Of a stretch of 64,000 nucleotides of DNA, positions 2,805-50,000 are shown piece after piece. The DNA lies in NCBI GenBank assembly GCA_964019055.1, contig OZ025224.1, forward strand, positions 1,281,001-1,345,000, read 5' to 3'. Position 1 is the first letter of the stretch. Every line of letters starts with the position of its first letter. Both the position numbers and the translations under genes were made by a program. Below the pieces are notes generated by a model. The model was not told where the DNA came from and made no database searches. It saw only the letters and a list, made by a program, of their open reading frames with translations. The stretch comes from Anthopleura xanthogrammica (lineage: Eukaryota; Cnidaria; Anthozoa; Actiniaria; Actiniidae).

Positions 2805-3455
2805 ATGGCGCCAGATCCAATAACAAACGAGGACATTTTGGATAGATTTCTTATTACTTTGATGTATGGAGACAATATTGGTGATTGGCCTCATGTGACA
2901 ATAGCTGCATGCAAGATCATCTTTACTGATGAAGATGGCAACGAACTGCCAGTACTTCATCAGGTCTACAGAAATGAAGTTGATAAACATGCTGAAGTAA
3001 AGCTGATTGAATATCTTCGATGGGATCCAGCCGCATTACAGGCCAGGGAAATTAAAATTGAGGTTTATATCAACTACTCACCCTGTAGCGAGTGTGCTGA
3101 CACAATACTGGACTATATAAAAGCAATGAAATTACTAAAGAGAGAAATTACAATGACCATTGTATTTGCCAATTTTTATAAGATATATCCAAACAACCTT
3201 AATACCCACCCAAACGTTTTGGGGTTGATAAGTCTGTATAACCAACCTGGGGTGGAACTTCGATTGCTTGGAGTACATGTAGGATGGGAAACATTTCTTG
3301 ACATGGGTGAGTTTTTTAATCCTGAAGAGGATAAGAATGAGTGTTTGGATAAGGCTGACTCACCACAAAGAAACACGAGAAAAGAGCAAGATCAGAATTT
3401 CTGGAACGACATCTTTGGGGTCGAAGAAATTGCATCAGGAGTAGGAGAACTATAG
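2805..3455 (+). CDS. AID/APOBEC-like cytidine deaminase, array 1 gene 1
   Basis: A 216-residue single-exon protein. It has the zinc-dependent deaminase signature: H62-A-E64 (zinc ligand and proton-shuttle glutamate) and P93-C94-S-E-C97 (zinc cysteines) on the expected helices. The strand MTIVFANFYK and a helix-strand LLGVHVGWETFLD follow, as in AID/APOBEC folds. The spacing and small PCxxC loop fit AID/APOBEC-like proteins rather than CDA or ADAR. Family members deaminate cytidine in single-stranded DNA or RNA, and many restrict viruses and retroelements. Activity here is inferred. There is no signal peptide or second domain. The tail, ending in a FWNDIFGVEEI-type segment, is shared by the paralogues. 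The ATG follows TTTAAA, and the start is identical in six of the eight copies. The protein is identical to the one at 39777. Confidence 0.85.
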   Translation: MAPDPITNEDILDRFLITLMYGDNIGDWPHVTIAACKIIFTDEDGNELPVLHQVYRNEVDKHAEVKLIEYLRWDPAALQAREIKIEVYINYSPCSECADTILDYIKAMKLLKREITMTIVFANFYKIYPNNLNTHPNVLGLISLYNQPGVELRLLGVHVGWETFLDMGEFFNPEEDKNECLDKADSPQRNTRKEQDQNFWNDIFGVEEIASGVGEL

Positions 3456-4009
3456 GAGTAGGATCCCTTAGCTGTCTGATGAGTGAAAAATGGAAGGGCT
3501 TACGCTTAGCAAGTGATTCCACTGTAAGGGACACATATTCAGCATAGAAACATGATTGCATGAGATTAATTTCATTATTATTATTCCATTATTTCATAAT
3601 TTAAAACAAACAACAACGGGCGAGAAATCGGTTCATTATCGTATCGTCAGCACATGGAATGATATATGTTCAAGTATTAAGATAAGTAAAACCGGTTTGA
3701 CTGGCTTTAAATTAAATTGAAGGTGAGGGGATTTCTCTTGAAAACCTTTTGTTTACGACCTTACCTAGTTTTCAACCTAATTTTAAACTACATCATGTGC
3801 AATTAGTTATTAGATGATTGACTTTTGGTATTTTAACTTAGTACTTTATTAGATTACTTGCTATTGGTGTAGGTAGGATTGGTATTTTAGTTTTCAGTAT
3901 TTTATCAAATGAATTAGTATTTTAATTATTATGGTAAATTTTTAAAGTATTATCTTTATAGTTTCTTTCAGTATTTTGTTATATTGCATTATTTCATTGT
4001 TAATATAGC

Positions 4010-13113: not shown

Positions 13114-13737
13114 ATGGCGCCAGATCCAATAACAAAGAAGGACATTCTTGAAAAGTTTCTTGTAACTTCGATGTATACAGTGTCAGTTGGTTGGCCTCGT
13201 GGTACTGGTGGGACAGTTGTCTCATACGAGATCATCTGTACTAATGAAGATGATAAAAAACAGGTATTTCACGAGGTCTACAGAAATGATAGCCAACATG
13301 CTGAGAAAAAGTTTATTGGATATCTTAAAGATGATTCGCTTGTAAAAAGTTCGAACAAAATCAAAATTAAGGTTTATCAGAACTATTCACCCTGTAACGA
13401 TTGTGCTAAGGAAATAATGAAGTACATGAGAGAAGAAAGGGGAAAAGAAAACAGAGAAGTTGAAATGACCATTACATTTGCAAACTTCTATAACGCACAT
13501 GTTTATGGATTTAATACCCAGGAGAGGGCAGACGCAAACATTTTGGGGTTGCTAGGGCTGTATAATCAACCTGAGGTGAAATTTAAATTGTTTGGAGTAC
13601 ATGTAGGATGGGAAAGATTCCTAGACATGAATCAGTTTTTTAGTCTTACTGAAGATGAAAAGAAGGCTGAGACACCAAGAAGAAAACATGTAGGGAAAAG
13701 CAAGATCAGAAGGTCTGGGATGACATATTTGGGGTAG
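13114..13737 (+). CDS. AID/APOBEC-like cytidine deaminase, array 1 gene 4 (C-terminal frameshift)
   Basis: 207 residues, single exon, clearly diverged from genes 1-3. Catalytic H62-A-E64 and P93-C94-N-D-C97 are intact, as are the FANFY strand and the GVHVGWERFLD helix-strand. It is closest to the gene at 36189, sharing a longer linker (YMREERGKENREVEMTI type). Near 13690 the frame shifts relative to all paralogues. The alternative frame still reads a QDQKVWDDIFGVEEI-type tail, so the natural C-terminus is lost and about 20 unrelated residues end the protein. The core is complete and may still fold. It could be an early pseudogene. The MITE at 12503 lies in its upstream flank. Confidence 0.75.
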   Translation: MAPDPITKKDILEKFLVTSMYTVSVGWPRGTGGTVVSYEIICTNEDDKKQVFHEVYRNDSQHAEKKFIGYLKDDSLVKSSNKIKIKVYQNYSPCNDCAKEIMKYMREERGKENREVEMTITFANFYNAHVYGFNTQERADANILGLLGLYNQPEVKFKLFGVHVGWERFLDMNQFFSLTEDEKKAETPRRKHVGKSKIRRSGMTYLG

Positions 13738-15245: not shown

Positions 15246-16373
15246 GTACCACTTTGCACAGGGTTCCCGCGCGCTTTGCTTACTCACAAATGCACAGAAA
15301 AATTGCAATAATGTAGTCAATGGATCAAGAAGTATTTTTTTTCTTATTTTTGCAATGCGAAAAATACGTTTAATCGAAGTCATGTCTGTCTTAAAGTGAA
15401 CAAAAACAGTTTTTCGACTTTAGCGACTTGTTAAAGAAGATTTAGCGAGGGAAAGCGAGGGAAGATTCTTAATCTTACGATGAATTAAGTTTCGTGACTG
15501 AAACTTCAGTGAGAGAAAAAGTGGCCTGTAGACCAGAAAAACCTGATCATACTGCAAGAGTGATATTTCAGTTTCGTAGAAAACACTTCATGGAAGGTAA
15601 ATTCATTAAGTTTAACTAATATTTCGTAAAAAATCGACAAGAAATGTGTAAACTAGCTGGAGAAACTCTCAGACAAGCCAAGGACGTTGGTTCGGCAAAC
15701 ATTGTCAGAGAAACTTGGATAGTTTGTCGTTTTTACTGCATTCTAGATTTTTATCATCTTTTTCTTCATTACTTGTGAACCAAAAAAGCGATATTTGAAG
15801 CTTTGATTATTTGTTTTTGATCCCATTTCAAGAAAAAAGGCTAAGACTTAGTAAAAAGACTTGGTTCTTTGAAAAAATATATTTGACGGCCAGCGAACCT
15901 TACGCGAAGTCAAAACAAGATTCCAGTTTCATAATCATATGAATATTTTGACATTTTTATAGATAATTTATTCTAATGTTGAATGAAATATGAAAAAGGA
16001 ATACATATCACACCAAATATTTGCTATTTATCGGGCTTTTCCAGCTATTACTATTACACAATCGCAAAAATGATGAGCTTGTTTTTTTTTATGGATAAGC
16101 TTATGTTTTTTTTTCTATACATGTATTCATATGTTCTACAATCTATAATTATTATTCTTCGAATTGAAAAGTTCTCTAATGCTTTTGAAGGCTTAAGATA
16201 ATGGTTTTTCTTTTAGTTTTTCCTCCTGAATTCTGGTAAAATCAACCAATGTGGTAACGCTATAACCAGCGTTATGCCGCGTCACACAATTGTCACGCTT
16301 TTAGCACTAAGTATACTATTTATGGGAGCTCCGCTTTTAGGCAGTGCCTAAATCTATATATTATTTTTTACAG

Positions 16374-19300
16374 CTCGCAATGAATGTGTCTAACGCTGGC
16401 AAAGCAGAAATTGTCACCATAAAAGATATGGACACAGATGAAGGGAAAACTCAGGTTGGAATATCGTTCCGATTTGTAAAGTGTACGCTATATGCCTGAT
16501 GCAATACTTTCAGCATTGATTCTACATGAAGTGAATAGATGATTGATGAAACATTTCTTGATTTGATTGTCACGTCTTTAAGCTATAAAGGTCTAAACTT
16601 ACAATGTGACGACATACTGGGAATTAGGGTGTACACTGGTCATTATGAGACAACAAATTTATAGTAAACATTGTGGAAACCACGAGAATAATGATGATAC
16701 AAATACTTTTGCTTGAACAACTTCAAAATAGGGGGAGGGAAGGAGGGAGGGAGGAAGAAAGGAAGAAAGAAAGAAGGAAGGAAGAAGGAGATGAGGGGGA
16801 GGGAGGGGGGAGGATATTAGGAAAAAGTACTAAAATTTGACCACTCTTAATTTTTTCCGTTTTTTCTTCGTAGATTAACTGGCTAGACTTTTTCACAAAG
16901 CTTTTTGAGAACGCATCCTTCAAACCTACAGAAAACACCAAAATCTCTCTTCAAAGTCGTACCTATTTCAAATCACTCAATCGATATCTTTACCGAGCAC
17001 CGAAGAGGTAAAAACCAAAGCTTGGTTGTCTTACAAAAGACCAAGCGTCATTTCCTTGTATATGATTCTTTGATTGATTCACTTACACAGCCACATACAC
17101 CGCCACCGGCCGATTGACTCGGTTGGTAAGAACGCAGGCTGTTGTATTGTGCGGGAGGTCGTGGTTTGAGTCAATATGCCGGATAACCACTCAGGGTCTT
17201 AAAATAACTGAGAAGAAGGTGGAGCTGCCTGTAGTAATATAATAATTTCCATCCAAATGGTTAGACCATCAAATCTTCTTGAATAATCTGAAAAAGTTGG
17301 AAAGCTAATATTCCCCCAATGACTCATTTTTCAGCCAGCCCTATTACTGTTCATTTGGCGCGCTAAGGGCATTTTTCAAGCGTGCTATATGCCTTGAAAA
17401 ATGTCCATGTGACTAGGCCTTGTGGCGTCATTTTGTTCAGAACGGTTGCACTTTACCAATATTCAAAACTGGTTCTTGATTTTTTTAATCGTGATTTTGA
17501 TATCGGAATTCATCACCTCTTATACTTTTAGAAACGACCAAAAATATTTTGTCATATCCACTTTAATTCAATAATTTAAAATGTTGTTCTTGTTATTTTA
17601 CAGCGACTTAGCTAACTACATGATGTGGCGCTTGATCAACCATTATGCAGGGCTACTAACCAAACCTTTCCGTCAGTCTTTGCCCATCTTTTACAAGGTT
17701 TTCCGAGGAGGAGCAATGCCAGATGTTCCTCGCTGGGAAACATGCTTGGCGGAAGTGAAGGCGTACTTTGGGATGGCTGTAGGACGGATGTTTGTCGAGG
17801 AAGTCTTTAGAAATGGCAGCAAAGCTGAGGTAGTCACTCGTAATAATATATCCACTTCACAGTTTCCTGCGCCTTTTAGAAAGACAGTCGTACCTCTGCA
17901 TTTTTAAGCGAGACGAACGGTGAGCTTGCAATGATAGAGACCTTTTTTGAAACCTTGGACAATCATTCACATGTCTCTGTCGTTTCAAGGTCACCGTTCG
18001 TCTCGTTTCGATGCAAAGGCACGGCTACCTTTCAAGATGGCGCAGAGAAATGTGAATTGAACTTTACTCCAGTTTCGAGTGCTATATTGCCTCGATTTTG
18101 TGTAGAATATTCATGTGTTCTTGTGAGGGTTTGTAGAATTTCAAAGTGTTTGTATTGTTAAAGTTGTGTATTCTTTACTTTACCGTTGGTATTTGTGAAT
18201 ATTTTGATGAACTCTGAGTAAATGAGTCTGTAATCAAGAAACGAAGCGGTATTTCAAGTTTGAGGGGTACAGTTGGCATGACCATAATAGTTTTCATTTG
18301 CAGTCATGGATAACAGTTTATTGTATCTATGCAAAGTGCCCCTCAAAGTCGAGAATAAGAAACAGTGAATTAGAGTACATGTCGTGAAAAAGTTCCGCGT
18401 ACGGCAAGGTTACGGTACGGAATTGAAAACATACTTCAATCACAGCTCATTAGACCACGTTTCATTCACTTGAGAGTAAGATTCTTTGTTTGAGTTGTAT
18501 CCATATTCATGTGTTTTCTCGTGCGCAACCATTAAACAAAGAAATGATACTCTAGGGAATGACACGTGGTCTGAAATGAGATAAACATTATGCCTAATGT
18601 AAAGGGATATATTGTTGAGTTTTCCATTCTCTTCTTATTCCCTCAAGGCAACAGAAATGGTTGAGGACATCAAAGCAGTTTTTATACAAGACTTTGATCA
18701 AGTTGAGTGGATGGATAGTAAAACACAGGCTGTTGCTAAGGAAAAGGTGAGCTTGTTGCTATGCAGGAAATTGAATAATACCGACTCAGACAATAGAGAA
18801 CCAATCATCATTGCAGCAGATTTCCTATAGTGGAATTAAAATCTTGTCTCACAAACATTGACTACAAATGTATCTGTTTTCAAAGGTACTACCATGCGCA
18901 TTTGATCATATTTCAAATGTTTAAAATGCGCAATTTAACAAATCGAAGTGACTTTTCCATGGTCTGTACTCCTATCGAACATAGAAATGACGTCAGATAT
19001 GATCCAAACTCAAGTGGAACCACGAGCGCAGCGAGGCATACATATATATATATATATATATTTGTATTTTCGCAGGAAAGTAAAATTAAACAATTTATAA
19101 ATAATTTTCCGGCAAATATCAAGATTTTAAATTCTGAAATGTTCTAGCTACGTTTTTGAGCTAGTGGGCCATAGTAACCATTTTGAATGGGGTCCCAAGT
19201 ACACTTATGTACCTTGGGCATAATGTTTCTCCATTTTTGAATCTCAGGCAAAGTCTATGACTGAACATATCGGTTACCCTGAGTCTATCATGGATGATAA

Positions 19301-23313: not shown

Positions 23314-23344
<31 letters not shown>

Positions 23345-30108: not shown

Positions 30109-31835
30109 GATAAAAACAGTAACAGCGAACTAATTACACAAAGGAACACACTAGAACAAAGGTAAGCATTAGTGGGCTTCAAGTTTGGAATAGTAAATTG
30201 TGCAATTCGATGAATCTGATATATATTATTCTTAGAAAATATTAATTATTTATGATTGAAAATATCAATAATGAGGGGAAAAATCAGAAAGCTTGACTAA
30301 AGTCATGCTCTGACAAATAAATCATTAGAAATATAGAATATATAACTAAGCGTTATTAATAGTTCTAAGATAATAATAAATAATTATAAATAAAAAGTAT
30401 AACGGCTATTGGGCTACGCCCAATACGGAATATATTTTCTCCCAACTAGCCGCCAGTATAAACCTGTATTGGCGGCTCAAAATTGCAATAAGTTATGAAA
30501 GTTAAGGTTAGACTTTGCCGTATTGTTTCATACTTTTTTTTTTAAATTGCTCTAAAACTGAGTTACTGGCATATTTTCATCGATTTAAAAGTCGTAGATC
30601 GTAGTTCATACTTCATATTTTTTGGTGGTTTGATCGATTTCAGATTGAATAAGATTATGCTAGCGCTAGTTACGAAAATACGGATAATCTATAGAAAATA
30701 TTTAATATCGGTCACTTTTATTCAGGAAAAATCTCGTTACTGCAGCCAGGTTTATGATTGTTTTCTCTGACTTAAATTTACATTATAATACACTCATGTT
30801 ATTCTTAAACTAAAGTTCGCAAACTTATGAGAGGTTATATTTCTTGCTAAATTGTTAGAGATGCAAATTAGGCTATGTTTCGTCTACCACATTTTTCTCG
30901 GAAAAAAATTTATATTGGACCTCTATTGATCGATGAAAACCAATGCAATTGCCGTATTCCTATTATTTAGCTTTTTTCTTTCTTTCGACTAATCAATCTA
31001 CATGAATTTCTCAATAGAAATAATACTTTATTGAAATTAAGGTATCAGATAGGTTTGAGGCCTTCGAGATTACTTTACGCGCGACCAAAATTTCTCGCTG
31101 CTTTTTCAATATTATTATATAAAAGTATACATTTTCTGAAAGCTAAATAAACGTAATTTTTAAAAAACAAATTGGAATTTTCTGTTTCGCGACACAATAT
31201 TTTATTTCTTTGGACAATGCAGAAATTTAGATAAATTTTATAAGATATTGATTTCGACAAAACCGCTGCGTTCTGTTTTACTGCAAGTACATAGCGAGGT
31301 TTAGTGTCAACATATTTTTCTGCGATTCATCTTCTAAAATATCAAGGAATACAGTTGCGGCTACCAGCGGTTTCTACAGTAAAGTGATTAAGCTACGACT
31401 GCCAATAAGTTAGCATTATATTATGAATGCTTCCATCGACTGAAGAGTTAGAAAAAATATACTACCTGCAGGTTAACATATTTCTGACGAGGCAACTGAG
31501 ATGCGGAGCTGTTACCTTCGTGATAATCAAAGAAAATGGTCTTATATCAGATGATACATCAGGTTTTCTCCTAGCCCGAGAGAATGCCGAGTGGGCGTCC
31601 AAAAAAAGGTCATGGCCAAATAACAACAAGTCGTTCTTTAAGAAAGTATTTGTAAAAGTTCACATCTCCATAATCTCAAAAAATAAGGAGAGAAAAAACT
31701 AAATTGCTCAACTCATTTACCAAAAGGGACTTCAACTTTATATTTGCAAGGTTTTAAAATAATCTAACGTGGAATTTCGGAACCCCATGCAAAAATTCCT
31801 TTTTCGGGATTTCCTCATAACATTACATGTAGTAG
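30109..31835. other. Intergenic, no gene seen
   Basis: AT-rich. Two small palindromes lie at about 30404-30475 (ATTGGGCTACGCCCAAT and CCGCCAGTATAAACCTG), probably a MITE fragment. The 91-codon frame at 31427 has no recognisable features. Confidence 0.5.
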
Positions 31836-31837
31836 TG

Positions 31838-31991
31838 TAACAAGCCAACAAGCCAACAAGCCAACAAGCCAACAAGCCAACAAGCCAACAAGCCAACAAG
31901 CCAACAAGCCAACAAGCCAACAAGCCAACAAGCCAACAAGCCAACAAGCCAACAAGCCAACAAGCCAACAAGCCAACAAGCCAACAAGCCA
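31838..31991 (+). repeat. (CAACAAGC)n 8-bp minisatellite
   Basis: About 19 near-perfect copies, 30 bases from the receptor stop codon. The open frame reading CWLVGLLA repeats is an artefact. Confidence 0.95.
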
Positions 31992-32022
31992 TTCCGAGGC
32001 TAAGGAAAAAACTGGGTTTGAA

Positions 32023-35000
32023 CTAAAACACTCTCATGGCTTCTCCCCAGTAAGCGATATTGAAGATAAGAAAGCCACCAGGAAAGAGTATCAGTGAGTA
32101 CTCATCTAACGCAAGAAGAAAGTCTTCCCTGTAGATGAAAGCTTTGATAGCATTCCACAGGATATTTTGACTACTGATGCGGTAACTTCGAGTCAGTCTT
32201 GGCGGGAAAACAAGAGTGCGATCGTGATCGGTACCCACACTGGCATTTTCCTGAATAAGAAAAATACAATAGAACAATTTTCTCTCATGTGCAATCGTTA
32301 AACAAAGAAATGATACTCTAGGAAATGACACTTGGTCTGAAATCGGAAAATATTGCGTTCAGGACTTTTATCAGCTGATTGAAACCCATGCAGCAATAAG
32401 GACCACAGGGTACCCATTTCGTAAAATGTTTCGTACCTTATTCAGGCTCTCTTCAAGGGATGTTTCTTCTCGTGTCTTTTTTATTCGGTTGCCTAGTAGC
32501 AGCACGATGGCGTATTCCAAGAGAGAGCAGAACACAAAAAGAAAGCATCCAATCAGATACTGGTCAATCCGCTTGACGTAATTCACCTGTGCGCAAGAAA
32601 GTAATAATACTAAAGAGAATGATTGTTCCGCAAATCTATCTAGATATATTTGTTTATCTAGAAAATATTGCTCTAGAAATATTTCTGATGAACCAGAAGC
32701 GAAATTGTACTTCTGGGTGTCTCAGCATGCATGGCTCCATCGTCGTTCCAAAATTCCCTACTTTTTCTATCCTCCTAACGTTTCACATGCAGCCTTAGCC
32801 ATTATGAGATGGCTATGCCCTTAAGTACAACCACCCTAACCTCAGGGTGCGTTATGTGCATAAGAAATCAGTGATAATATTTCGCTATTGACACTGACTA
32901 GACGGAAAACTAAAACATTGGTCAATAAATATTGAGCATTTTAGAATTCGTACTATACCGCTGTGTTTCGTGATTACAGGCTCATTTACACAGGGATAGC
33001 CACATTTCAGGGTCAGAATATTCACAACGGTAAAGTAAAGAAAGCACAACCTTCATCAATACAAACATTTTGAAATTCCATGGACATTTCAGGGCTCAAT
33101 TATAGTGTCAAAATATTCACCAATACCAACGGTAGAGTAAAGAATGCACGACTTCAAAAATGCAAACACTTTGAAAATCATTGTAACGAATATTCTACGC
33201 AGAAACGAGGTTAACACTGCGTGAATGAATATGCAGTCAAGGAACACACTTGTATTGAACGACTTCGAACCCAGTCTATTGAACGAATCTAAACAGTATC
33301 GCATACCTTAGCAACATGGTTACTTAGCATGGTCAAAATCGTGACAACAGTCAATACTGACGTGACACCTAGCGTGATGCGTGCTGGAGGCTTGTCACGG
33401 GGCAGGACGAACCCAATCCACGATATGATAACAATGATTGCTGATGGGGCGTATGCATGGTAGATGAAATAGCTATAGGTTCTTTGGAACTTGAACGTAG
33501 CGTTGAGACCTGACCAGTTTCCTTTAACGATAAAAAAAATGTCCAAAAATAATTATAATAAAATCTAATAATACTAATAATTCTAACAAAATAATTAATA
33601 ATACACTTTAATAACGTGTCATCTATCTTTAACGTTTTCACACTAATTGTAAATCAAGTTGGAACGAAACCGAGCAGGTCTGGGTACGAGATTGCCTTTT
33701 TTACAGTAGCACGATTATGAGCATGCGCAGAAGAGTCTTTGACGTCTACACTGTTCTGTTAGCTTATTGTTTAAGTGATCCAAACGTTTGAAACTTACCA
33801 ACAACATAGATGTTGTAGGTGTTGGACAGCGTAACATCGTTGAGAATGTATTGAGGAAGGACTTTCAATGAGTTGGGTACTGGTATAAGCCCTTCTTCCC
33901 ACTTGAAGGTGATATGCTTATCGATATAACCATCTGGATGGAAAAATGGAGAAATGGGAATTAGGAAAAGTGAAGGGACGTAAGAAATGGGAAAAGTTGT
34001 ATGTCTGTCAGAGGGCTGTATTGACAGAGAAATGGGACAAGAAAGTATGTAAAGAAAAAGAGGAAAAGAGATGGGAAGGGAAGAAAAGGAAAGGGAAGGA
34101 AAGGAATTGAAAGGAATGAGAAAAAAGGAAAAGAAGGAATAATTGAAAGAAGGAAAAAAGGAATGAAATGAAACAAATGAATGAGTAAGGAAAAAAATAT
34201 GCTTACAACTTTCAAAGATGATAGGACAATACTGGGTATCCATAGGAAACTCTTGAAGGTCCATCGAGCAATATGCCTTAACACTCACCCTGAGGTAAAT
34301 AAAACACAGATCACATAAAGACTCCTTCACATGACACCAAAGCAGCTAAGTTTATAGTAATATATATATTCAAAATTCCAAAGTACGAATAGACCGGTAC
34401 CTCATCGGCTTGGGTGTAATGTTGTCCCATTTCAGACCACGTGTCATTCCCCAGAGTATCATTTCATTGTTAAACGGTTGCGCATGAGAAGACACATGAA
34501 TATGGATACAACTCAAACAAAGAATCTTATTCTCAAGAGAATGACACGTGGTCTGAAATAGGAAAACATTACACCCAAGCCTAATGAGGTCTAATGAAGT
34601 TTATTTACTATACCTCGCATTATACTGGACTTTTCCCTTTGGTCCCAACATAATCATCTGGTTGTCAGTGGTTACGGTGTGGAATTTCGCATCTTTTGCA
34701 TTGACGAAATAAGAGTCAGGCAGCCACACCCTATCCATCACGTGATTACTTAAGAACATTGTATTATTAGCACCGTGGTCCAGTCTCTCATCGGTCCATT
34801 CTTGGCGGAGGAACATGTCAATAGAAAAATCCTGGAACAAACAAATTCATTACAAAGGCTGGCCTTGCACGGTACAAGAAGTAATTTTAACCGCGTTCAA
34901 AAAGTTGTACGTTTAGAGGTTCCGTTTACATGGAACTGTACTATCTAAAATTCAAACGCCCAGCCGTGCAAATTAAACAGAAGGTTACGTGTTAATGGTA

Positions 35001-38000
35001 TAAACTGGTCAAATTTTGGAACGTTTTAAAATGCGTCCAGAACCGTGTAAGGCCAACCACAACTCAAGTCGGCGTTTGATATTCCATCGAGCCTTTATTC
35101 ATTTGAATAATGAGTTCCGGTTCAAAAACAACAAGTATTCGGCCTTGACTGAATATTTTTCGTTGAGACTTTTTTAATTTTATTTTGTTTCCGAGTTCGA
35201 TAAAGTTTAAGGTTTTTTCAAAATAAAGAAAAAGTTTTCAAACAAACTTTCATCGGTCTACTGCCAAGCAATCATAGAATCTAATCTTACATCCGTTGTG
35301 CAGATAGAGGTTTGCAAATTTTTAAAAACAATATCTTTGAGCGTCTCCTTTAGAATAATTAGCAATTTATAAAGCCTTTTTTGAAGGCATTATATATTTT
35401 CTAAGAAAAGCAGGACGTGGCGGTGAATCAATAACAATTCTATTTATTTTGCAATTCTCCAACTTTCATTTTTTTTTTCATTTCTTTGCGTCCCCAGTTC
35501 AAACAAAGGCAGTTAATAGCTGATCGTCAAAGTCAGAGACGCTGAACTTCTAGACACTTTAAGGTACCTTTAATAATCGTATGGTCTGTTTTCCTTTAAG
35601 TTTTGTTTAAATTACGAAAGTGACGACCTGACAAACTGCTTACTTTACTTTACTTTCATTTCTTTGCGTTCCCAGTTCGAACAAAGGAAGATACTGATCG
35701 CCACAGTCAGAGACGCTGAACTTCTAGATACTCTAACTGAGGTATGTTTAATAATTTTATGGTCTGTTTTCGATTGTTTGTAATTTTTTGCTTCAATTAC
35801 CGAAAGTAAGAAGTAATATTCCAAAAGGGAGTGTTTTATACCCATATTCATCTCCTCTGAGAATATAATTGAAGTGCGATTAGAAACACTCTTGGTCAGA
35901 GCAAAAGTTTTGACCAAATCTAAGGAATATCTTAGTAGCGATTGGGATACTGAAGAATCTAACTCACCTCGAAGCTCTCGATGCACCTATTATATGCATG
36001 GACCGATTCATAGGTGTTCAGCTATAGCTATAACGTTGAACAACCAGTCTAGATCTCTCGTATTATTTAGTTATGTATAATTTCTGATCATCCATATGAG
36101 CCATGTATGAGTAACTAGAAATAATTCGATATTCTCCATTCAACAGATATTCATTACAACTCTAAACTACCCAAGAATCTCGTTTAAAATGGTGGAAAAT
36201 CCAATAAAAAAGAATGAAATTGTTAGATCATTTCTTGTAACTTCTATGTATACAGTGCCAGTAGGTTGGCCTCATTGGACAGTAGTCGTATGCGAGATCA
36301 TCTATTTTGATGAAGGTGACGACGAATGGGTATTTCATAAGGTCTACAGAAATGATGGTGACGACCATGCTGAAATAAAGCTTATTGGATATCTTAAAGA
36401 TGATTCGCGTGTAAACAGTTCGAACCAAATCAAAATTAAGGTTTATCAGAACTATTCACCCTGTAGCGATTGTGCTAAGGAAATAATGCAGTACATGGAA
36501 GAAGAAAGGAGAAAAGAAAACAGAGAAGTTGAAATGACCATTACATTTGCAAACTTCTATAAAACACATGTTTATGGAATTAATACCCAGAAGAAGGCAG
36601 AGGCAAACATTTTGGGGTTGATAGGGCTGTATGAACAACCTGACGTGGAACTTCAATTGCTTGGAGTGCATGTAAAATGGAAAACATTCCTAAACATGAG
36701 TGAGATTTCTAGTCTTACTGATGATGAAAAGAAAGTGTGTTTGAGGAAGGCTGACTCACGAAAGAGAAAAAGGAGAGAAGTGCAAGATCAGTGAGTCTGG
36801 GGCGACATCTTCAGGGTCAATGAAATTACATCAAAACTCGATAGAAATAGGATCAGTCAGCTGCGTGATGAGTTACGATGGCAAACAGAAAATAGGGACG
36901 CGGAAGATGACGATACCTTGGACAGAAACGTTTCGGTCCAAGACCTTACATCAACACTTCGCAGTTACCAACTCACTGATTAAAATCGGGCAATTGAAGA
37001 TATCGCTTAGCAACTGATTCCACTGTAAGGGACACATATTCAGCACAGAAACATGATTGCATGAGATTAATTTCATTATTATTATTCCATTATTTCATAA
37101 TTTAAAACAAACAACAACGGGCGAGAAATCGGTTCATTATCGTATCGTCAGCACATGGAATGATATATGTTCAAGTATTAAGATAAGTAAAACCGGTTTG
37201 ACGGGCTTTAAATTAAATATAAGGTGAGGGGATATCTCTAGAAAACCTTTTGATTACGAGCTTACCTAGTTTTCAGCCTAATTTTAAACTACATCATGTG
37301 CAATTAGTTATTAGATGATTGACTTTTGGTATTTTAACTTAGTACTTTATTAGATAACTTGCTATTGGTGTAGGTATTATTGGTATTTCAGTTTTCAGTA
37401 TTTTATCAAATGAATTAGTATTTTAATTATTATGGTAAATCTTTAAAGTATTATCTTTATAGTTTCTTTCAGTATTTTGTTATATTGCATTATTCATTGT
37501 TGATATAGCTTGCTTACTCACATTACAATAACATTAATAGTATCGATAGATGACAAGGTTAATCCAACGTGTCATAGCAAATTGTAGGAGGTGCTTTATC
37601 CTCAGATAAAAACAATTACTGTAGCATATTGTAAGGGTTCAGTGTTATAGATGAATAAAATCGAGAAAATCTCAGTTGTGTGAATTTTGTAGTTTATGAA
37701 GAGAAGAGAAGTGAAAAGAAGAGAAGACAAGACAAGAATAAGACAAGAGAAGACAAGAGAAGACAAGAGAAGACAAGAGAAGACAAGAGAAGACAAGAGA
37801 AGACAAGAGAAGACAAGAGAAGACAAGAGAAGACAAGAGAAGACAAGAGAGCTTCAACTCTTTGTGCGTCTCCTTTAACTTGAATAGTTGTGTCCAGACC
37901 AATAAATAAAGCATTCTTTGAGGATGTAATTTTCTTGGAAAAGCAGGACGATCATATCAATAACAAGGCTATCACGGCCTAATAAGGCAATGGTAGCTGT

Positions 38001-41000
38001 GACCCTATCATCTTGACTTTACTTTCACTTTCACATGTGTTCAAACAAAGGAAGTAAGCAGCTAATCGTACAGTTAGAGACGCTTTAAGGTAGCTTTAAT
38101 AATCTTATGGTCTGTTTTCCTTTAAGTTTTGCTTCAATTACTGAAAGTGACGAACCGACAAACAGCTTAATTTACTTTACTTTCATTTCTTTGCGTCCCC
38201 TGCAGTTCAAACAAAGGAAGTTTGTAGCTGATCTCCACAGACAGAGACGCTGAACTTCTAGACGCTTTAAGGTACGTTTAATAATCTTATGGTCTGTTTT
38301 CCTTTACGTTTTGCTTCAATTACTGAAAGCCGGTGATGAACCGACAAACAGCTTAGTTCACATTCATTTCTTTGTATCCCCAGTTCGAACAAAGGAAGTT
38401 ACTGATCGCCACAGACAGAGACGCTGAACTTCTAGACACTTGACTCAGTAAGGTACGTTTAATAATCTGTTTACCTTTAAGTTTCGCTTCAGCTACTGAA
38501 AGGAAGAAGTATTATTCCAAAAAGGGAGTGTTCTTTTATGCCCATATCCAACTCGTACCGAGAGTTGACCATCAAAATCTAAGCAAGCCAATGCTGGTAT
38601 AAAAGTTGTCGAGCTTCAAGACATAAAGAAACTGAGAAACAAATATTTCTTTAATATCGATATTGCGATTGGAATACTAAAGTGTAAAGTCTAATGGGAT
38701 AGCTTACTATCGCTTGGGATAGTAATCCAACTTACTAATAAGCTCTCAATGTACTAGTTAATTATGGATCGGTATACGATACCTGTTGATGCTCTTTGGG
38801 TCAGCTATCAAAGTCAAACTGTCAATCACGCTATCCAACCCGGTGAACTACGATGTGAAAGGGACGGGCGTACCTTCGTTATTTGGTACATCTTAAGGTG
38901 TTCAAACGAAAAACTTATTAAAATGCAGTAAAATTAGCATTATTTGGTACCATTTAGGGGTGAAAATTGCGATTGTTATGACTACGAGAAAGAGAATTTT
39001 GGTACCCTTTACTTGATAATGACAAAAAATGTGATCTAGTACTAGCATTTCTACAGAGTAGCTATTCGTCCACTGAAATTCTAATCTGGAATTTATAGAA
39101 GTTGATTTTTGTAGAGGAAGGAAAGCCGGAGAACCCGGAGAAACCCTTGAAGCACAGGAGAGAACCATCTACCAACTCTACTATTAATGTATTAAATATT
39201 AATCCCGCCAGGTGCTTGGATTGTCCCCAGTTCAAACAAAGGCAGTTAGTAGCTGATCGTCAAATTCAGAGACGCTGAACTTCTAGACACTTTAAGGTAC
39301 GTTTAATAATCTTATGGTCTGATTTCGATCCTTTGATTTTTTAAAGTTTTGATTCAATTACTGAAAGTAAGAAGTAATATTCCAAAAGGGAGTGTTTTAT
39401 ACCCATATTCACCTCCTCTGAGAATATAATTGAAGTGCGATAATAAAACGCTCTTGGTCAGAGCAAAAGTTTTGACCAAATCTAAGGAATATCTTAGTAG
39501 CGATTGGGATACTGAAGAATCTAACTCACCTCGAAGCTCTCGATGCAACTACTATATACGTGAACGGGTCATACAGCTATCAGTTTGAGTATAGTCAAGC
39601 AAGTTGAATAGCTAGTCGATCTCTAGCATTATTTAGTTAATATCTATTTCTGATGATACATATCATCATGACTTGCATGCATGGTAAAACAGTACTGAGC
39701 AATTATTGATAAGTCGATATTCTCCATTCAACAGATATTCGTTACAACTCTAAACTACCCAAGAATCTCGTTTAAAATGGCGCCAGATCCAATAACAAAC
39801 GAGGACATTTTGGATAGATTTCTTATTACTTTGATGTATGGAGACAATATTGGTGATTGGCCTCATGTGACAATAGCTGCATGCAAGATCATCTTTACTG
39901 ATGAAGATGGCAACGAACTGCCAGTACTTCATCAGGTCTACAGAAATGAAGTTGATAAACATGCTGAAGTAAAGCTGATTGAATATCTTCGATGGGATCC
40001 AGCCGCATTACAGGCCAGGGAAATTAAAATTGAGGTTTATATCAACTACTCACCCTGTAGCGAGTGTGCTGACACAATACTGGACTATATAAAAGCAATG
40101 AAATTACTAAAGAGAGAAATTACAATGACCATTGTATTTGCCAATTTTTATAAGATATATCCAAACAACCTTAATACCCACCCAAACGTTTTGGGGTTGA
40201 TAAGTCTGTATAACCAACCTGGGGTGGAACTTCGATTGCTTGGAGTACATGTAGGATGGGAAACATTTCTTGACATGGGTGAGTTTTTTAATCCTGAAGA
40301 GGATAAGAATGAGTGTTTGGATAAGGCTGACTCACCACAAAGAAACACGAGAAAAGAGCAAGATCAGAATTTCTGGAACGACATCTTTGGGGTCGAAGAA
40401 ATTGCATCAGGAGTAGGAGAACTATAGGAGTAGGATCCCTTAGCTGTCTGATGAGTGAAAAATGGAAGGGCTTACGCTTAGCAAGTGATTCCACTGTAAG
40501 GGACACATATTCAGCATAGAAACATGATTGCATGAGATTAATTTCATTATTATTATTCCATTATTTCATAATTTAAAACAAACAACAACGGGCGAGAAAT
40601 CGGTTCATTATCGTATCGTCAGCACATGGAATGATATATGTTCAAGTATTAAGATAAGTAAAACCGGTTTGACTGGCTTTAAATTAAATTGAAGGTGAGG
40701 GGATTTCTCTTGAAAACCTTTTGTTTACGACCTTACCTAGTTTTCAACCTAATTTTAAACTACATCATGTGCAATTAGTTATTAGATGATTGACTTTTGG
40801 TATTTTAACTTAGTACTTTATTAGATTACTTGCTATTGGTGTAGGTAGGATTGGTATTTTAGTTTTCAGTATTTTATCAAATGAATTAGTATTTTAATTA
40901 TTATGGTAAATTTTTAAAGTATTATCTTTATAGTTTCTTTCAGTATTTTGTTATATTGCATTATTTCATTGTTAATATAGCTTCCTTACTCACATTACAA

Positions 41001-44000
41001 TAACATTAATAGTATCGATAGATGACAAGGTTAATCCAACGTGTCATAGCAAATTGTAGGAGGTGCTTTATCCTCAGATAAAAACAATTACTGTAACATA
41101 TTGTAAGGGTTCAGTGTTATAGATGAATAAAATCGAGAAAATCTCAGTTGTGTGAATTTTGTAGTTTATGAAGAGAAGAGAAGGGAAGAGAAGAAAAGAG
41201 AAGAGAGCATCAACTCTTTGTGCGTCGACTCCTTTAACTTGAATAGTTGTGTCCAGACCAATAAATAAAGCATTCTTTAAGGATGTAATTACTGGGTTGC
41301 TATGGTAGCAAACCAGTCTTAAAATGAGATCCGTTTTTCCGTGGTCAGGTATACCATAATTTCACACGTCATGATTGGTCGAGAACTTGTAAACAATGTC
41401 CAATGTCCAATGAAGTGGCCACACGACATCGATGTATTTATAGTGTTGTGTCACCATTAATTCATTCGTTCAGGGTTCGTGAAGTACTAGTTTGTCTGTA
41501 GGCACGTTGCGTACTATTGTCTTTAGGTTTTTTAACACTACGCTTAAACTACTTACAAACACACACGCCGTACGTGGTAGACACACACTAAAAGATGTTA
41601 TTGAGCGATTTTGGAACGGGTTGGTCCACATACTCAAAGAGAGAAGCCTGAGAATCTGTGAGCTATCTTTGAGAATCTATAAGCAAACTAGGTATTGATG
41701 AGAATCGTAGAACTAGACAAAATAGACTAAGAGAATCTATAAACTACCTAGCTATGATCAAGCTAGATCTTACCAGATCTCAGATACAAAAAAATATACT
41801 GAGACAAACTACAGAACGAGAGACAAACTACAAAACGAGTGACAAACAAAGCTTTGATGAAAGCTGACTCCAAGAACTTGTAGAAGTCAGACGAGCTGAT
41901 AGTGATCTACAAGAAAGCGAACTGCAAAGACTCCTTGATGAATATTTTCATTTATGAAAATACAGAAAACAAAAACTGAGGGAAAAACAAATGACCAGTT
42001 AAACACATTTTGGCTAAGAGTATTTACATTGATAAAGCGTTTGTTTTGCAGCGAACAGTTTCGATACTGAAATAGTTATGTTTATTTCATCAGCTAGTCT
42101 TGAAAGGTACTCTAGTAGGTCAAGTAGAAATCTAATACGCGTTAACAAGTCAGTAACGCAACACTAATGTCTTACTAGAATTTAAAATGTTTTTAATAAA
42201 GGGGGACTTTGAACCCAAAAGGAACACTTTGGTAAGAAATAAGAGTATATAGGATTGGTGAGTGGGCGAGCTCTCGCACAGGCAACCCAGTGAACGCTCC
42301 AAGAGCGTCTAGTTTTCTTGGAAAAGCAGGACGATCATATCAATAACAAGGCTATCACGGCCTAATAAGGCAATGGTAGCTGTGACCCTATCATCTTGAC
42401 TTTACTTTCACTTTCACATGCATGGTTCAAACAAAGGAAGTAAGCAGCTAATCGTACAGTTAGAGACTCTTTAAGGTACCTTTAATAATCTTATTGTCTG
42501 TTTTCCTTTAAGTTTTGCTTCAATTACTGAAAGTGACGAACCGACAAACAGCTTAATTTACTTTACTTTCATTTCTTTGCGTCCCCTGCAGTTCAAACAA
42601 AGGAAGTTTGTAGCTAATCGCCACAGACAGAGACGCTGAACCTCTAGACACTTTAAGGTACGTTTAATAATCTGTTTACCTTTAAGTTTCGCTTCAGCTA
42701 CTGAAAGGAAGAAGTATTATTCCAAAAAGGGAGTGTTCTTTTATGCCCATAATCAACTCGTACCGAGAGTTGACCATCAAAATCTAAGCAAGCCAATGCT
42801 GGTATAAAAGTTGTCGAGCTTCAAGACATAAAGAAACTGAGAAACAAATATTTCTTTAATATCGATATTGCGATTGGAATACTAAAGTGTAAAGTCTAAT
42901 GGGATAGCTTACTATCGCTTGGGATAGTAATCCAACTTACTAATAAGCTCTCAATGTACTAGTTAATTATGGATCGGTATACGATACCTGTTGATGCTCT
43001 TTGGGTCAGCTATCAAAGTCAAACTGTCAATCACGCTATCCAACCCGGTGAACTACGATGTGAAAGGGACGGGCGTACCTTCGTTATTTGGTACATCTTA
43101 AGGTGTTCAAACGAAAAACTTATTAAAATGCAGTAAAATTAGCATTATTTGGTACCATTTAGGGGTGAAAATTGCGATTGTTATGACTACGAGAAAGAGA
43201 ATTTTGGTACCCTTTACTTGATAATGACAAAAAATGTGATCTAGTACTAGCATTTCTACAGAGTAGCTATTCGTCCACTGAAATTCTAATCTGGAATTTA
43301 TAGAAGTTGATTTTTGTAGAGGAAGGAAAGCCGGAGAACCCGGAGAAACCCTTGAAGCACAGGAGAGAACCATCTACCAACTCTACTATTAATGTATTAA
43401 ATATTAATCCCGCCAGGTGCTTGGATTGTCCCCAGTTCAAACAAAGGCAGTTAGTAGCTGATCGTCAAATTCAGAGACGCTGAACTTCTAGACACTTTAA
43501 GGTACGTTTAATAATCTTATGGTCTGATTTCGATCCTTTGATTTTTTAAAGTTTTGATTCAATTACTGAAAGTAAGAAGTAATATTCCAAAAGGGAGTGT
43601 TTTATACCCATATTCATCTCCTCTGAGAATATAATTGAAGTGCGATAATAAAACGCTCTTGGTCAGAGCAAAAGTTTTGACCAAATCTAAGGAATATCTT
43701 AGTAGCGATTGGGATACTGAAGAATCTAACTCACCTCGAAGCTCTCGATGCAACTACTATATACGTGAACGGGTCATACAGCTATCAGTTTGAGTATAGT
43801 CAAGCAAGTTGAATAGCTAGTCGATCTCTAGCATTATTTAGTTAATATCTATTTCTGATGATACATATCATCATGACTTGCATGCATGGTAAAACAGTAC
43901 TGAGCAATTATTGATAAGTCGATATTCTCCATTCAACAGATATTCGTTACAACTCTAAACTACCCAAGAATCTCGTTTAAAATGGCGCCAGATCCAATAA

Positions 44001-47000
44001 CAAACGAGGACATTTTGGATAGATTTCTTATTACTTTGATGTATGGAAACAATACTGGTGTTTGGCCTCATGTGACAATAGCTGCATGCAAGATCATCTT
44101 TACTGATGCTGATGACAACGAACTGCCAGTACTTCATCAGGTCTACAGAAATGAAGTTGAACATGCTGAAGTAAAGCTGATTGAATATCTTCGATGGGAT
44201 CCAGTCGCATTACAGGCCAGGGAAATTAAAATTGAGGTTTATATCAACTACTCACCCTGTAGCGAGTGTGCTGACACAATACTGGACTATATAAAAGCAA
44301 TGAAATTACTAAAGAGAGAAATTACAATGACCATTGTATTTGCCAATTTTTATAAGATATATCCAAACAACCTTAATACCCACCCAAACGTTTTGGGGTT
44401 GATAAGTCTGTATAACCAACCTGGGGTGGAACTTCGATTGCTTGGAGTACATGTAGGATGGGAAACATTTCTTGACATGGGTGAGTTTTTTAATCCTGAA
44501 GAGGATAAGAATGAGTGTTTGAATAAGGCTGACTCACCACAAAGAAACACGAGAAAAGTGCAAGATCAGAATTTCTGGAACGACATCTTTGGGGTTGAAG
44601 AAATTGCATCAGGAGTAGGAAAACTATAGGAGTAGGATCCGTTAGCTGCCTGATGAGTGAAAAATGGAAGGGCTTACGCTTAGCAAGTGATTCCACTGTA
44701 AGGGACACATATTCAGTACAGAACAAGATTGCATGAGATTAATTAATTATTATTATTCCATTATTTCATAATTTAAAACAAACAACACGGGCGAGAAATC
44801 GGTTCATTATCGTATCGTCAGCACATGGAATGATATATGTTCAAGTATTAAGATAAGTAAAACCGGTTTGACTGGCTTTAAAATAAATTGAAGGTGAGGG
44901 AATATCTCTAGAAAACCTTTTGATTACGACCTTACCTAGTTTTCAACCTAATTTTAAACTACATCATGTGCAATTAGTTATTAGATGATTGACTTTTGGT
45001 ATTTTAACTTAGTACTTTATTAGATTACTTGCTATTGGTGTAGGTAGGATTGGTATTTTAGTTTTCAGTATTTTATCAAAAAAATTAGTATTTTAATTAT
45101 TATGGTAAATCTTTAAAGTATTATCTTTATAGTTTCTTTCAGTATTTTGTTATATTGCATTATTTCATTGTTAATATAGCTTCCTTACTCACATTACAAT
45201 AACATTAATAGTATCGATAGATGACAAGGTTAATCCAACGTGTCATAGCAAATTGTAGGAGGTGCTTTATTCTCAGATAAAAACAATTACTGTAACATAT
45301 TGTAAGGGTTCAGTGTTATAGATGAATAAAATCGAGAAAATGTCAGTTGTGTGAATTTTGTAGTTTATGAAGAGAAGGGAAGGAAGAGAAGAGAAGAGAA
45401 GAGAAGAGAAGAGAAGAGAAGAGAAGAGAAGAGAAGAGAAGAGAAGAGAAGAGAAGAGAAGAGAGCTTCAACTCTTTTTGCTTCTCCTTTAACTTGAATA
45501 GTTGTGTCCAGACCAATAAATAAAGCATTCTTTGAGGGTGTAATTTTCTTGGAAAAGCAGGACGATCATATCAATAACAAGGCTATCACGGCCTAATAAG
45601 GCAATGATAGCTGTGACCCTTATCATCTTGACTTTACTTTCACTTTCACTTTCACTTTCACATGCATGGTTCAAACAAAGGAAGTTAGCAGCTTATCGTA
45701 CAGTTAGAGACGCTTTAAGGTACCTTTAATAATCGTATGGTCTGTTTTCCTTTAAGTTTTGCTTCAATTACTGAAAGTGACGAACCGACAAACAGCTTAC
45801 TTTACTTTACTTTCATTTCTTTGCGTCCCCTGCAGTTGAAACAAAGGAAGTTTGTAGCTGATCGCCACAGACAGAGACGCTGAACTTCTAGACACTTTAA
45901 GGTACGTTTAATAATCTGTTTACCTTTAAGTTTCGCTTCAGCTACTGAAAGGAAGAAGTATTATTCCAAAAAGGGAGTGTTTTATGCCCATTCCAACTCG
46001 TAGCGAGAGTTGACCATCAAAATCTAAGCAAGCCAATGCTGGTATAAAAGTTGTCGAGCTTCAAGACATAAAGAAACTGAGAAACAAATATTTCTTTAAT
46101 ATCGATATTGCGATTGGAATACTAAAGTGTAAAGTCTAATGGAATAGCTTACTATCGCGAAAATTTCAATTGTTATGACTACGAGAAAGAGAATTTTGGT
46201 ACCCTTTACCTGATAATGACAAAAAATGTGATTTAGTACTAGCATTTCTACAGAGTAGCTATTCGTCCACGGAAATTCTAATCTGGAATTTAGAAGTTGA
46301 ATTTTGCAGAGGGAGGAAAGCCGGAGAACCAAGAGAAAAATCCTTAAAGCACAGGAGAGAACCAACTAGTAACCCTACTATTAATGTATAAAATAGTAAT
46401 CCCGCCAGGTGCTTGGATTGTTTTCCGAGAAAATTTTGTTTGGAGAAACATAATCACATCACTCGAACTCTGCTATTCTGTCCCGGGGGGGGGGGGGGGG
46501 GGGGGTACTCCCCTTTATTTGCTATACGGGTATGTGCCGCCCGATAGGGTATGGTTTTTTGGCTTTTAGGTCTGGGGTAGGGTATCATTTTTTTACAATT
46601 TGTCTGGGGAAGGGTAAGGTTTTTGTCTGGGATAGGGTAACTTTTTGACATTTGTTCTGGGATAAGGTTATGTTTTAGTTGTTTTAGCCTGCTAGGCTAC
46701 GTTTTCTGCCGGCACAAACATTTAAATTCAATTAAACAATTGCCAAATAGTTATTGAAATCTATTGAGTTTAGTCTGGGATAGGGTTTACAATTCTTAGG
46801 TTTAGTCTGGGGTAGGGTCAGGGTTTTGAGGATCTGGCGGTACACCCCCACCCAAGTTGGGGTGGTAGTACCCCCCCCCCCCCCCGGGTATTCTGTCTTC
46901 CATTTTTTTTAAATTGAATACATAAGATTCCAATTCAATCTATGAATTTGCTGTGCCCGTCTTGACTCTTGAAAAAATAGCAACAAATTTATATTCATAT

Positions 47001-50000
47001 AGATTATAGTTAATGGTTCAATATATAGTTACGTAAATGCAAACAAAATATCATGGGATATACTGCTGAGAAGGTGCGTGAGTGCAAGGGTCACTTATCC
47101 ACGGGCTGTCCACGTGCCTCTAATTAAGACAGTCCAATCACGGTATAGCACACATTTCCTGTCAGGCGGTTGGCATATTCCATAGTTTAGTTCAAGCCGG
47201 ACGCTAGTCAAGTCGTGTGGTATACGACTTGCATGCATGGTAAAACATGTACAGTACTGAGCAACTATTGATAAGTCGATATTCTCCATTCAACAGATAT
47301 CATTACAACTCTAAACAACCCAAGAATCTCGTTTAAAAATGGAGCAATTTAATCAAATAACAAAAGAGGAATTTCTTAACAATTTTCCTGTAACTTCGAC
47401 GTATGGAGTGCCAGGTGGTTGGCCTCGTGTGACAGTAGCTGCATGCAAGATCAGCGTTATTGATTATAATGGCATCGGACTTATATTTCATCAGGTTTTC
47501 AGAAATCATGATGGCAAACATGCTGAAGAATTACTTATTGCATATCTCAAAGAGACTATTGCATCAACATATACGCAAATTGGAATTGAGGTTTATATCA
47601 ATTATTCACCCTGTTACTTGTGTGCTGCAATAACACTGGACTATATAAAAGAATCGCTAAAGAAAGAAATTAAAATGGCTATTGCATTTGCTAACTTTTA
47701 TAAAACACATACATATCCAGGAAACAGCCAGATGGATGCAAACATTGAAGGATTGAAGAAGCTGTATAGGCAACCTGGGGTGAAACTTCAATTGCTTGGG
47801 GGGCATGTAGCATGGGGAACATTCTTTAACATAACTGAGTTTTTCAGTCTTACTGAAGAAGATAAGAAGGAGTGCTTGTTAAGGGCTGAATCAGAGGAAA
47901 GACAAGCTAGGGAAGCGGCAGATTTGAAGTTCTGGAACGAAATGTTTGCTGTCGATCAACTTACAAAGCTTATTTCGAGAACTAGTATGCACGGCTGATT
48001 TAACTGATTTAAAATAGCAAGATACGGTATCACTTGACATAGCTGGTTAAGTGATAGTCACTAATAGTCACTAAGTAAAAACTATTAGACCCTCACAATT
48101 TGATATTATTTCATGGATTCAATGTTTGCATTCTAACGGTTGAGGCATTATCTCTTGTAAGACTTTTTGCCAGTTGTGAACTTACTTAATTTTCAACCTA
48201 ATTTGCTTATTTTAAAACACATAATTTGTAATAAGTTAATAGATTATTGGCTAAATATGAATATAAATATGAATATAAAATTTTTATGAAATACTATATG
48301 AGATAAGAATTAATAATATATCGATATTCTAATAAAAATTCTACTGTGATCTATTCTTAAGAATACAAGACTTTACAATAAAATTATTTTTAAATCTATT
48401 TGTTCTGCAGTTTTATAGCTTGTTTTGTAATTGTATTTTATTATATTGCATTGAATTGTTAATATATATATATATATCTAGCTTACTCACCATATCAATA
48501 ACATTAATAGTATCGATGGATAACAAGGTAAAACCAACCGTAACGATGACTGGACCACCTGGGTGAAAATAGCAAATAAATAAGCATTTTAACAAGTTGT
48601 AGGAGGTGCTAATTCCTCAAATAGAACCAGTTATACATTGTAACATGTTTTAATGGTTTGGTGTTCTGGTGATTAAAATTGCGAACTAAAGCTCAGTGAC
48701 TGTTGTTGTTTATATATGTAGAAAAGAGAAATGAATGGAGGGGAAGAGAGGGAAGAGAAGGAGAGGAGAGGAGAGGAGAGGAGAGGAGAGGAGAGGGGAG
48801 GGGAGGGGAGGGGAGGGGAGGATCAAGCCAGTAACTTAAAGCTCACCTTCATAGTTTGGTCGAACTCTTCTGTCATATCCAGCAAGTAGCTCATTCAACA
48901 CTTCAGTTACTGTCTTCTTACTGAAAAAAAATCGTTTCTTTTTACATTAAATGCGCTTCCTTAATTTATATTTCTTCAGTAGTTTAGTTTCATTTATTCT
49001 GAAGACTTGCTACAAAAAATACTGAGATCATTTCAGTTTTAAATTTTCAGATCTTTTTGTATTTTTCTTTCATTGGTGTAACTACAAAGTAGGTTATTAC
49101 AGAATGCTTCACAATATTATTAAGATCATGTACATAGTTAAGTTGAGTGACTTTATTTTCACAAACAAGGTGGCCCATTCAGCTAAAACTCTGGTATCCA
49201 GAGAAGGCCCAGAGGTAGATTGACCGTATTTCTAGGCCGGGATAAGCCTTTTTCCCTTCGGTTTCTAAGGGAAGGCTAAAAGAAGAACAGCTTAGCAGTG
49301 GAGTTACCTCTCAAAATATAGTCCCCTTCACAGTTCCCTGCGCCATCTTGAAAGGTAGCTGTGCCTTTGCATTGAAGCGAGACAAACGGTGAGCTTCCAA
49401 TGATAGAGACCTTTTTTTAACACCTTGGACAATTATTCACACATCTCTATCATTGCAAGGTCACCGTTCGTCTCGCTTTGATTCAAAGGCGCGGCTACCT
49501 TTCAAGATGGCGCAGGGAACTGTGAAAGAGACTATTACACATTCCCATCACGTCAGTTTCACCCATTTTTCACATAATTAATTAATAATTATTCATTAAT
49601 AATATATGAAACATAGCAGGACTTTCTTGATGGATTTTAGTTTCAGAGTATTTTTTAATCTATTAATGATGATAGCGTGTTGTGATCAATGAATAATTAA
49701 TGGATAGACACACGTTTTCAAAACACAATGTCCTATCTAAACAATAATGATTTTTTCCCTAAGGGATAATCGCGGAGTACTTTATTAATATTTTATTTAT
49801 TTGATGCAAAAAAAGGCGATTCTTTGTTTTCGGTGTTTTTGAAATATTTAAGGGAATACTAGAAGGCTTTAGAATGTAGTTTTTGGTGTCAGTGATAGAA
49901 TAAATTCTGCTTACATGAATTAGTTAACAAGAGAGAAAACATGAATTATTTAAGAATATATATAATTTGCCAAAAACCAAGAAATGAACTCTCAGAAAAA

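Follow-up and report, generated by a model that had tools for sequence, protein, structure and literature searches.

A tandemly duplicated family of AID/APOBEC-like deaminases in the sea anemone Anthopleura xanthogrammica, with excess amino-acid change in one clade and IRF-like upstream modules

Introduction

It is in mammals that arms races of AID/APOBEC deaminases are best known. Corals and anemones were already known to have this enzyme family, and we describe here a duplicated group of its genes in the sea anemone Anthopleura xanthogrammica. The DNA analysed, hereafter the window, is a stretch of 64,000 nucleotides (GenBank assembly GCA_964019055.1, contig OZ025224.1, positions 1,281,001 to 1,345,000 of the forward strand) in which eight open reading frames (ORFs) encode AID/APOBEC-like deaminases; genes are named below by the first base of the ORF. 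The new findings concern how strong selection is on one clade, the IRF-like modules upstream of the genes and their recent duplication. No prior paper on selection or promoters of the cnidarian family was among the matches listed in literature searches of titles and abstract starts, in which few subscription journals were covered.

Two invertebrate systems allow an experimental comparison. In PMC5956068 the AID/APOBEC-like motif is given as H[AVS]E-x(24-36)-PCxxC, and the sea urchin genes SpAIDL1-9 are described as nine loci, five of them frameshifted in the reference. The same paper reports mutator activity in bacterial assays and pathogen-inducible expression for the sea urchin and brachiopod AID-like relatives. 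The window proteins have the HxE...PCxxC arrangement in common with both groups and are similar in size to the sea urchin proteins. Those animals belong to other phyla, and it is for their proteins that activity and induction are reported.

The nearest named proteins are those of Actinia tenebrosa, LOC116288249, LOC116291838 (a partial record) and LOC116291839, which are 47-52% identical to the window proteins, have equal PCxxC spacing and form one clade with them with strong support. Two of the three Actinia genes are probably neighbours, since they have adjacent locus numbers and lie on contigs of equal length. Oculina patagonica LOC144658055 (a two-domain protein), Exaiptasia AIPGENE1030 and a number of metagenome proteins belong to the same family and have the HAE and PC...C sites. 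The separation of the zinc cysteines varies: eight residues intervene in Oculina and Exaiptasia, against two in the window proteins, and 6-15 do so in the metagenome relatives tabulated, with the exception of P0039. The two-residue separation is found in Actinia-type proteins, a clam protein and P0039.

The likeness to mammalian APOBEC3 lies in the best PDB profile match, which is to APOBEC3G, in local expansion and in positive selection, while interferon-type control of the anemone family stands at the level of a suggestion. Unlike mammalian APOBEC3, the anemone proteins are single-domain, have their coding part in one exon and find their nearest relatives among cnidarians. As to the setting in which such proteins might act, PMC13319465 describes a double-stranded RNA response with IRF genes in Nematostella, and poly(I:C) and cGAMP responses in anemones as being under study; the terms 'APOBEC', 'deaminase' and 'ISRE' have no occurrence in the main text of that paper.

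Family identity

The eight ORFs are all complete, all on the plus strand and 201-219 amino acids in length. They lie at the positions given in an earlier sequence-only reading of this DNA, which had reported HAE and PCxxC in every copy. Each contains HAE and SPCxxC, with 28 residues between HAE and PCxxC (27 in 47339), and each satisfies the published pattern quoted above.

Profile searches support the family assignment. The best AID/APOBEC model in Pfam scores 49-56 bits per protein against cut-offs of 25-27, and the corresponding E-values, 9e-13 to 9e-15, exclude chance for the eight matches. The cut-offs of NAD1, SNAD4, APOBEC_N, APOBEC3 and APOBEC2 are passed by every window protein, NAD1 scoring above the APOBEC3 model throughout. 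For comparison, the general cytidine/dCMP deaminase model PF00383 reaches 12.6-21 bits, below its cut-off of 25 in all eight, and those toxin-type deaminase models that appear are likewise all under their cut-offs. When the PDB was searched with a profile of 38 relatives, 37 sequences were returned at E<=1, every one of them named AID or APOBEC; the best match was APOBEC3G (7e-9), and AID was matched at 2.6e-4. NCBIfam yielded no deaminase match for the five proteins searched (four from the window and one copy from contig C2).

A CDA, TadA or toxin-type identity is ruled out by the Pfam, PDB profile and NCBIfam searches, and the AID/APOBEC assignment of the sequence-only reading, which a best match to one of those groups would have refuted, stands. 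An APOBEC4-like identity is also ruled out: in each of the eight the APOBEC4 model scores 28-41 bits, whereas the highest-scoring other model reaches 49-56. The label PF18785 is a precomputed domain of the nearest relatives; in our local Pfam scans no row for PF18785 appeared, either with the window proteins or with those relatives. Identity as a SNAD, a secreted AID/APOBEC-like deaminase, was rejected on N-termini such as MAPDPITNEDILDRF, which, judged by eye, are not hydrophobic; as no signal peptide is obvious by the same inspection, the proteins are probably intracellular. A viral origin was rejected too: one scan of viral contigs with a single peptide pattern gave 93 matching stretches, none of which encoded a relative. 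Judged by these profiles, the genes encode genuine AID/APOBEC-like deaminases of invertebrate type and, going by the label of their nearest relatives, probably belong to the cnidarian Inv-AAD kind.

Gene complement and tandem duplication

The genome searched comprises 289.8 Mb in 125 contigs, of which C21 carries the window. Three queries (the NAD1 model, one window protein and the APOBEC4 model) returned an identical set of loci and no deaminase loci of other families. Taking the counts as lower bounds, there are at least 14 deaminase loci: nine on C21 (eight in the window and one just to its left), three on C15 and two on C2. The additional C21 gene, whose tail the sequence-only reading had placed at the left edge, has its ORF wholly outside the window (C21:1280237-1280842). 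It stops about 160 bases short of the first window base and does not differ from 36189. The same reading held that the active site is kept in every copy, which is true of the window but not of the genome. C15b (C15:5496783-5497371) is a frameshifted gene flanked by two intact ones, while C2a (L027:5827-6525) has an open frame in which HAV replaces HAE and one Trp has become Leu, with a ratio of nonsynonymous to synonymous change (dN/dS) that is still high; its sequence makes it likely to be an inactive copy. With C2a the exception, HAE is present in 12 of the 13 open copies, and PCxxC in all 13.

A tree was built from the 11 distinct genes of this genome and 20 rows from relatives, with no vertebrate row. 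It contains a clade A (2805, to which 39777 is equal, 7010, 10457 and 43982) and a clade B (13114, 36189, C15a, C15c, C2a and C2b; the frameshifted C15b, outside the 11 genes, is counted with it); these two and 47339 group together with Actinia proteins at a support of 100/99. As had been noticed from the sequence, the copies range from identical to strongly diverged: 2805 and 39777 have the same coding DNA, 10457 differs from 7010 by a single nonsynonymous difference, and 47339 shares 44% identity with 13114 and 50% with 2805. The C-terminal tail of 36189 is shorter than those of C15a, C15c and C2b.

The genes of the window are clustered in the manner first described, in two groups, and the layout is accounted for by a tandem segmental duplication of about 37 kb. 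In window coordinates the first copy of the unit extends from about -21180 to 8967. Each copy contains a pair of GT10 fucosyltransferase genes together with three genes for deaminases (-764, 2805 and 7010 in the first; 36189, 39777 and 43982 in the second), with 10457 and 13114 between the copies and 47339 beyond the second. Divergence between the copies is a mosaic, in which about 11 kb contain five mismatches and the remainder differs mostly by 1-6%, a pattern that suggests gene conversion. Part of the duplicated cluster could instead be an assembly artefact, both haplotypes having been placed in tandem, and the near-identical 11 kb bordered by 1-6% divergence would be in keeping with this. 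We consider it unlikely: the window contains no run of N, the copies differ by indels and have 10457 and 13114 sitting between them, and the clade B genes on C15 and C2, together with their selection signal, are independent of the duplication. The rapid local turnover proposed earlier is backed by the 37-kb duplication and by a dN/dS ratio (omega) above 1 in one clade.

Selection on the coding sequences

Clade B shows an excess of amino-acid change. This was assessed with codon models, in our own implementation, on the 11 distinct genes, identical duplicates and C15b being left out. Pairwise dN/dS within clade B is 1.3-3.7 in all 15 pairs. For its six genes M0 gives an omega of 3.36, significantly different from 1 (twice the log-likelihood difference, 2dlnL, 28.8; p 8e-8), and the comparison of M7 and M8 gives a 2dlnL of 74, with 36% of sites at an omega of about 8. 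By comparison, 30 simulations at omega 1, run without recombination, yielded omega values of no more than 1.58 and 2dlnL values of no more than 5.7. The 11 distinct genes together have an omega of 1.58 (p 0.001), and in clade A plus 47339 M8 is favoured over M7 (p 1.5e-5). Protein change in the family is as fast as an arms race predicts, much like that in mammalian antiviral APOBEC3.

The excess is most striking in the middle third of the protein, 64 codons around the zinc site, where the 15 clade B pairs have 0-1 synonymous against 4-21 nonsynonymous differences. The low dS is not attributable to constraint on synonymous sites, since synonymous change between lineages in this same third (pS 0.34-0.44) demonstrates that it is free to occur there; a young common origin of these codons by gene conversion, combined with selection, is the likely cause. 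In the three pairs formed by C15a, C15c and C2b, divergence of the 3' flank (0.038-0.055) is similar to or less than dS (0.040-0.056) and less than dN (0.10-0.14). Loops 1, 3, 5 and 7, delimited from the order of the motifs, hold nine of the 26 clade B sites whose posterior exceeds 0.9 (one-sided Fisher p 0.03).

Several observations weigh against selection of this kind. In clade A plus 47339 the M0 omega is 1.00. For the three pairs, on C15 and C2, that involve C2a, only 79-97 bases of 3' flank can be aligned, with a divergence of 0.03-0.10 that is greater than dS and smaller than dN, and pairs with 13114 or 36189 have no usable 3'-flank control. The 5' flanks of the C15 and C2 copies diverge by 0.05-0.14, more than dS in six of six pairs and more than dN in four of the six; this flank, tried as a neutral yardstick and rejected, contradicts the dN excess in those four. 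The same flanks show a genealogy different from that of the genes, which with their divergence makes gene conversion likely, and the codon models are uncorrected for recombination. When three non-overlapping pairs are used, the Fisher p value is 0.002 for the full length and 0.40 for the first third. Finally, the selected sites are scattered over the protein and, for all 11 genes, 7 of 22 fall in the loops (p 0.066).

Upstream regions

Repeated modules of about 160-180 bases are found upstream of gene 2805, where they include three candidate non-coding first exons with donor-like AAG/GTA. Similar modules precede other genes (approximately 5430-5700, 8700-9150, 12080-12350, 38020-38470, 42400-42680 and 45630-45920), and a genome search with one module gave 44 matches, confined to C21, C15 and C2 except for two on C4. 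A pattern scan of the deaminase loci located 36 modules having a AACAAAGG box and a donor-like GGTA; as the scan pattern demanded both, including the A-GGTA donor, the presence of a donor in the modules is not independent evidence. An IRF-like pair, GAAA-N-GAAA or GAAA-NN-GAAA, occurs no more than 45 bases upstream of 25 of the 36 modules, but not of all, and 8 of the 14 genes have, within 2.5 kb upstream, the exact 10-mer GAAAGTGAAA, which resembles an interferon-stimulated response element (ISRE). Within the window GAAAGTGAAAGT occurs 10 times, against 0.01 expected from shuffles, these copies being related by descent. Such descent of the ISRE-like copies from one another tells against an IRF-driven promoter, as does the showing of a 16-mer in the genome, 11 matches against six for its backward control. 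Five near-full-length open IRF domains, from seven matches in all, are encoded in the genome.

Immediately before the ATG, a block of 65 bases is alike in the 12 genes that were aligned of the 14, and 47339 keeps it too, although its 250-base 5' flank is 36% divergent from clade A. These signals make it likely that transcripts begin with a non-coding exon, which is spliced to the coding one, so that the description of the genes as single-exon, made in the sequence-only reading, would apply to their coding part.

Orphan modules, followed by no recognisable deaminase gene, were seen at 14156-14760 in the window and at C4:1236040-1236384, the latter adjoining a transposase-like frame. No gene remnants were found beside either at the tblastn and blastn thresholds applied.

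Proposed function

The reading that we consider probable is that of an innate factor restricting viruses or retroelements, intracellular, duplicated, partly under positive selection and probably IRF-induced; the immune or anti-transposon role suggested in the sequence-only reading is likewise inferred. Each protein would bind one zinc through the His and two Cys, the Glu of HAE would shuttle protons, and the substrate would be cytidine of single-stranded DNA or RNA inside the cell. Viral or retroelement nucleic acid would be the target, deaminated within an inducible innate response by several duplicated versions, some of them diversifying under positive selection, whose expression would probably be switched on by IRF-type signalling. 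The fuller proposition, of an independent cnidarian APOBEC3-like antiviral locus with IRF-driven promoters, alternative first exons, tandemly amplifying and gene-converting deaminases, a clade with omega above 3 and a viral or retroelement antagonist, is offered tentatively, as possible rather than probable.

The genome has 341 integrase candidates, of which 150 matches were scored, and dozens lie in open frames of more than 1000 amino acids on many contigs. Two families of long terminal repeat (LTR) elements have copies that are about 100% identical, and LTR elements appear to have been recently active. The persistence of many young, open LTR elements speaks against the restriction reading. 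Hypermutation was sought with two 1-kb LTR fragments followed from the scored integrase matches. The first had 14 matches, 13 of about 100% identity and one of 75%; the second had 11, ten of 98-100% and one of 85%. In the latter family the 85% copy differs from the reference piece by 16 C>T, 9 T>C, 12 G>A and 5 A>G, with no strand bias, and two further copies have 17 and 8 differences per 1000 bases. Neither a hypermutated copy nor strand-biased G-to-A change was seen in these two young families, a second point on the unfavourable side from a sample too small to exclude editing.

The same fold and active site would serve a host-directed editor, AID- or APOBEC1-like, which edited the animal's own mRNA or diversified its own genes and whose changes tracked shifting cellular targets, and profile matches cannot tell editors of single-stranded DNA from those of RNA. 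Nevertheless, the clade B omega above 3, the repeated duplication, the frameshifted copy and the copy lacking the catalytic Glu fit conflict better, and host-directed editing seems to us improbable. A family of young duplicates kept for dosage or subfunction under relaxed constraint, with no arms race, is also a doubtful account. It would suit the neutral M0 result in clade A plus 47339, the frameshift of C15b, the HAV of C2a and the changed tails of 13114 and 36189, and gene conversion may have inflated the site tests; but relaxation alone cannot raise omega above 1, and clade B rejects an omega of 1 with values that the neutral simulations do not attain. Least plausible by some way are deaminase-independent factors that retain nucleic-acid binding and not catalysis: the frame of C2a is open despite loss of the catalytic Glu, but nearly all open copies retain HAE and all retain PCxxC.

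Other features of the window

The features located in the window are collected in Table 1. The GT10 genes are passengers in the duplicated unit, and the left-hand copy of the minus-strand GT10 gene is broken into two frames (L030:8683-9850). At 51700-56330 there is a tandem array whose repeat period is about 314 bases and whose stretches are about 81-95% alike. Outside the window, COX1 on C125 is in two parts about 840 bases apart; a COX1 split by an intron is a hexacoral trait. Two more COX1 matches, C59:11997-13361 and C44:5-1162, are possibly DNA of another organism in the assembly.

Table 1. Position, strand and supporting evidence of features in the window
Feature	Position	Strand	Evidence
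Repeated upstream modules of gene 2805	1040..1500	+	sequence; putative function
ISRE-like GAAAGTGAAAGT upstream of gene 2805	1049-1060	-	motif match
Near-invariant block before ATG: pyrimidine tract, CAACAG acceptor-like site, short 5' untranslated region	2740..2804	+	alignment; putative splice role
AID/APOBEC-like deaminase gene, clade A, 216 amino acids	2805..3455	+	ORF; Pfam NAD1 54.2 bits
AID/APOBEC-like deaminase gene, clade A, 216 amino acids	7010..7660	+	ORF; Pfam
AID/APOBEC-like deaminase gene, clade A, 216 amino acids	10457..11107	+	ORF; Pfam
AID/APOBEC-like deaminase gene, clade B, 207 amino acids, changed C-terminal tail	13114..13737	+	ORF; Pfam
Second copy of ~37-kb tandem segmental duplication	16366..45917	.	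comparison of the copies
GT10 fucosyltransferase gene	26459..27790	-	Pfam PF00852 160.5 bits
GT10 fucosyltransferase gene	28822..30108	+	Pfam PF00852 165.8 bits
AID/APOBEC-like deaminase gene, clade B, 201 amino acids	36189..36794	+	ORF; Pfam
AID/APOBEC-like deaminase gene, clade A, coding DNA as 2805	39777..40427	+	ORF
AID/APOBEC-like deaminase gene, clade A, 215 amino acids	43982..44629	+	ORF; Pfam
AID/APOBEC-like deaminase gene, separate lineage, 219 amino acids	47339..47998	+	ORF; Pfam; tree

Implications

If the proposed role as a restriction factor is true, mutagenic innate immunity, and the arms race that accompanies it, would be placed close to the base of the animal tree. Anemones, in which responses to poly(I:C) and cGAMP are already studied (PMC13319465), would moreover gain a concrete effector to test.

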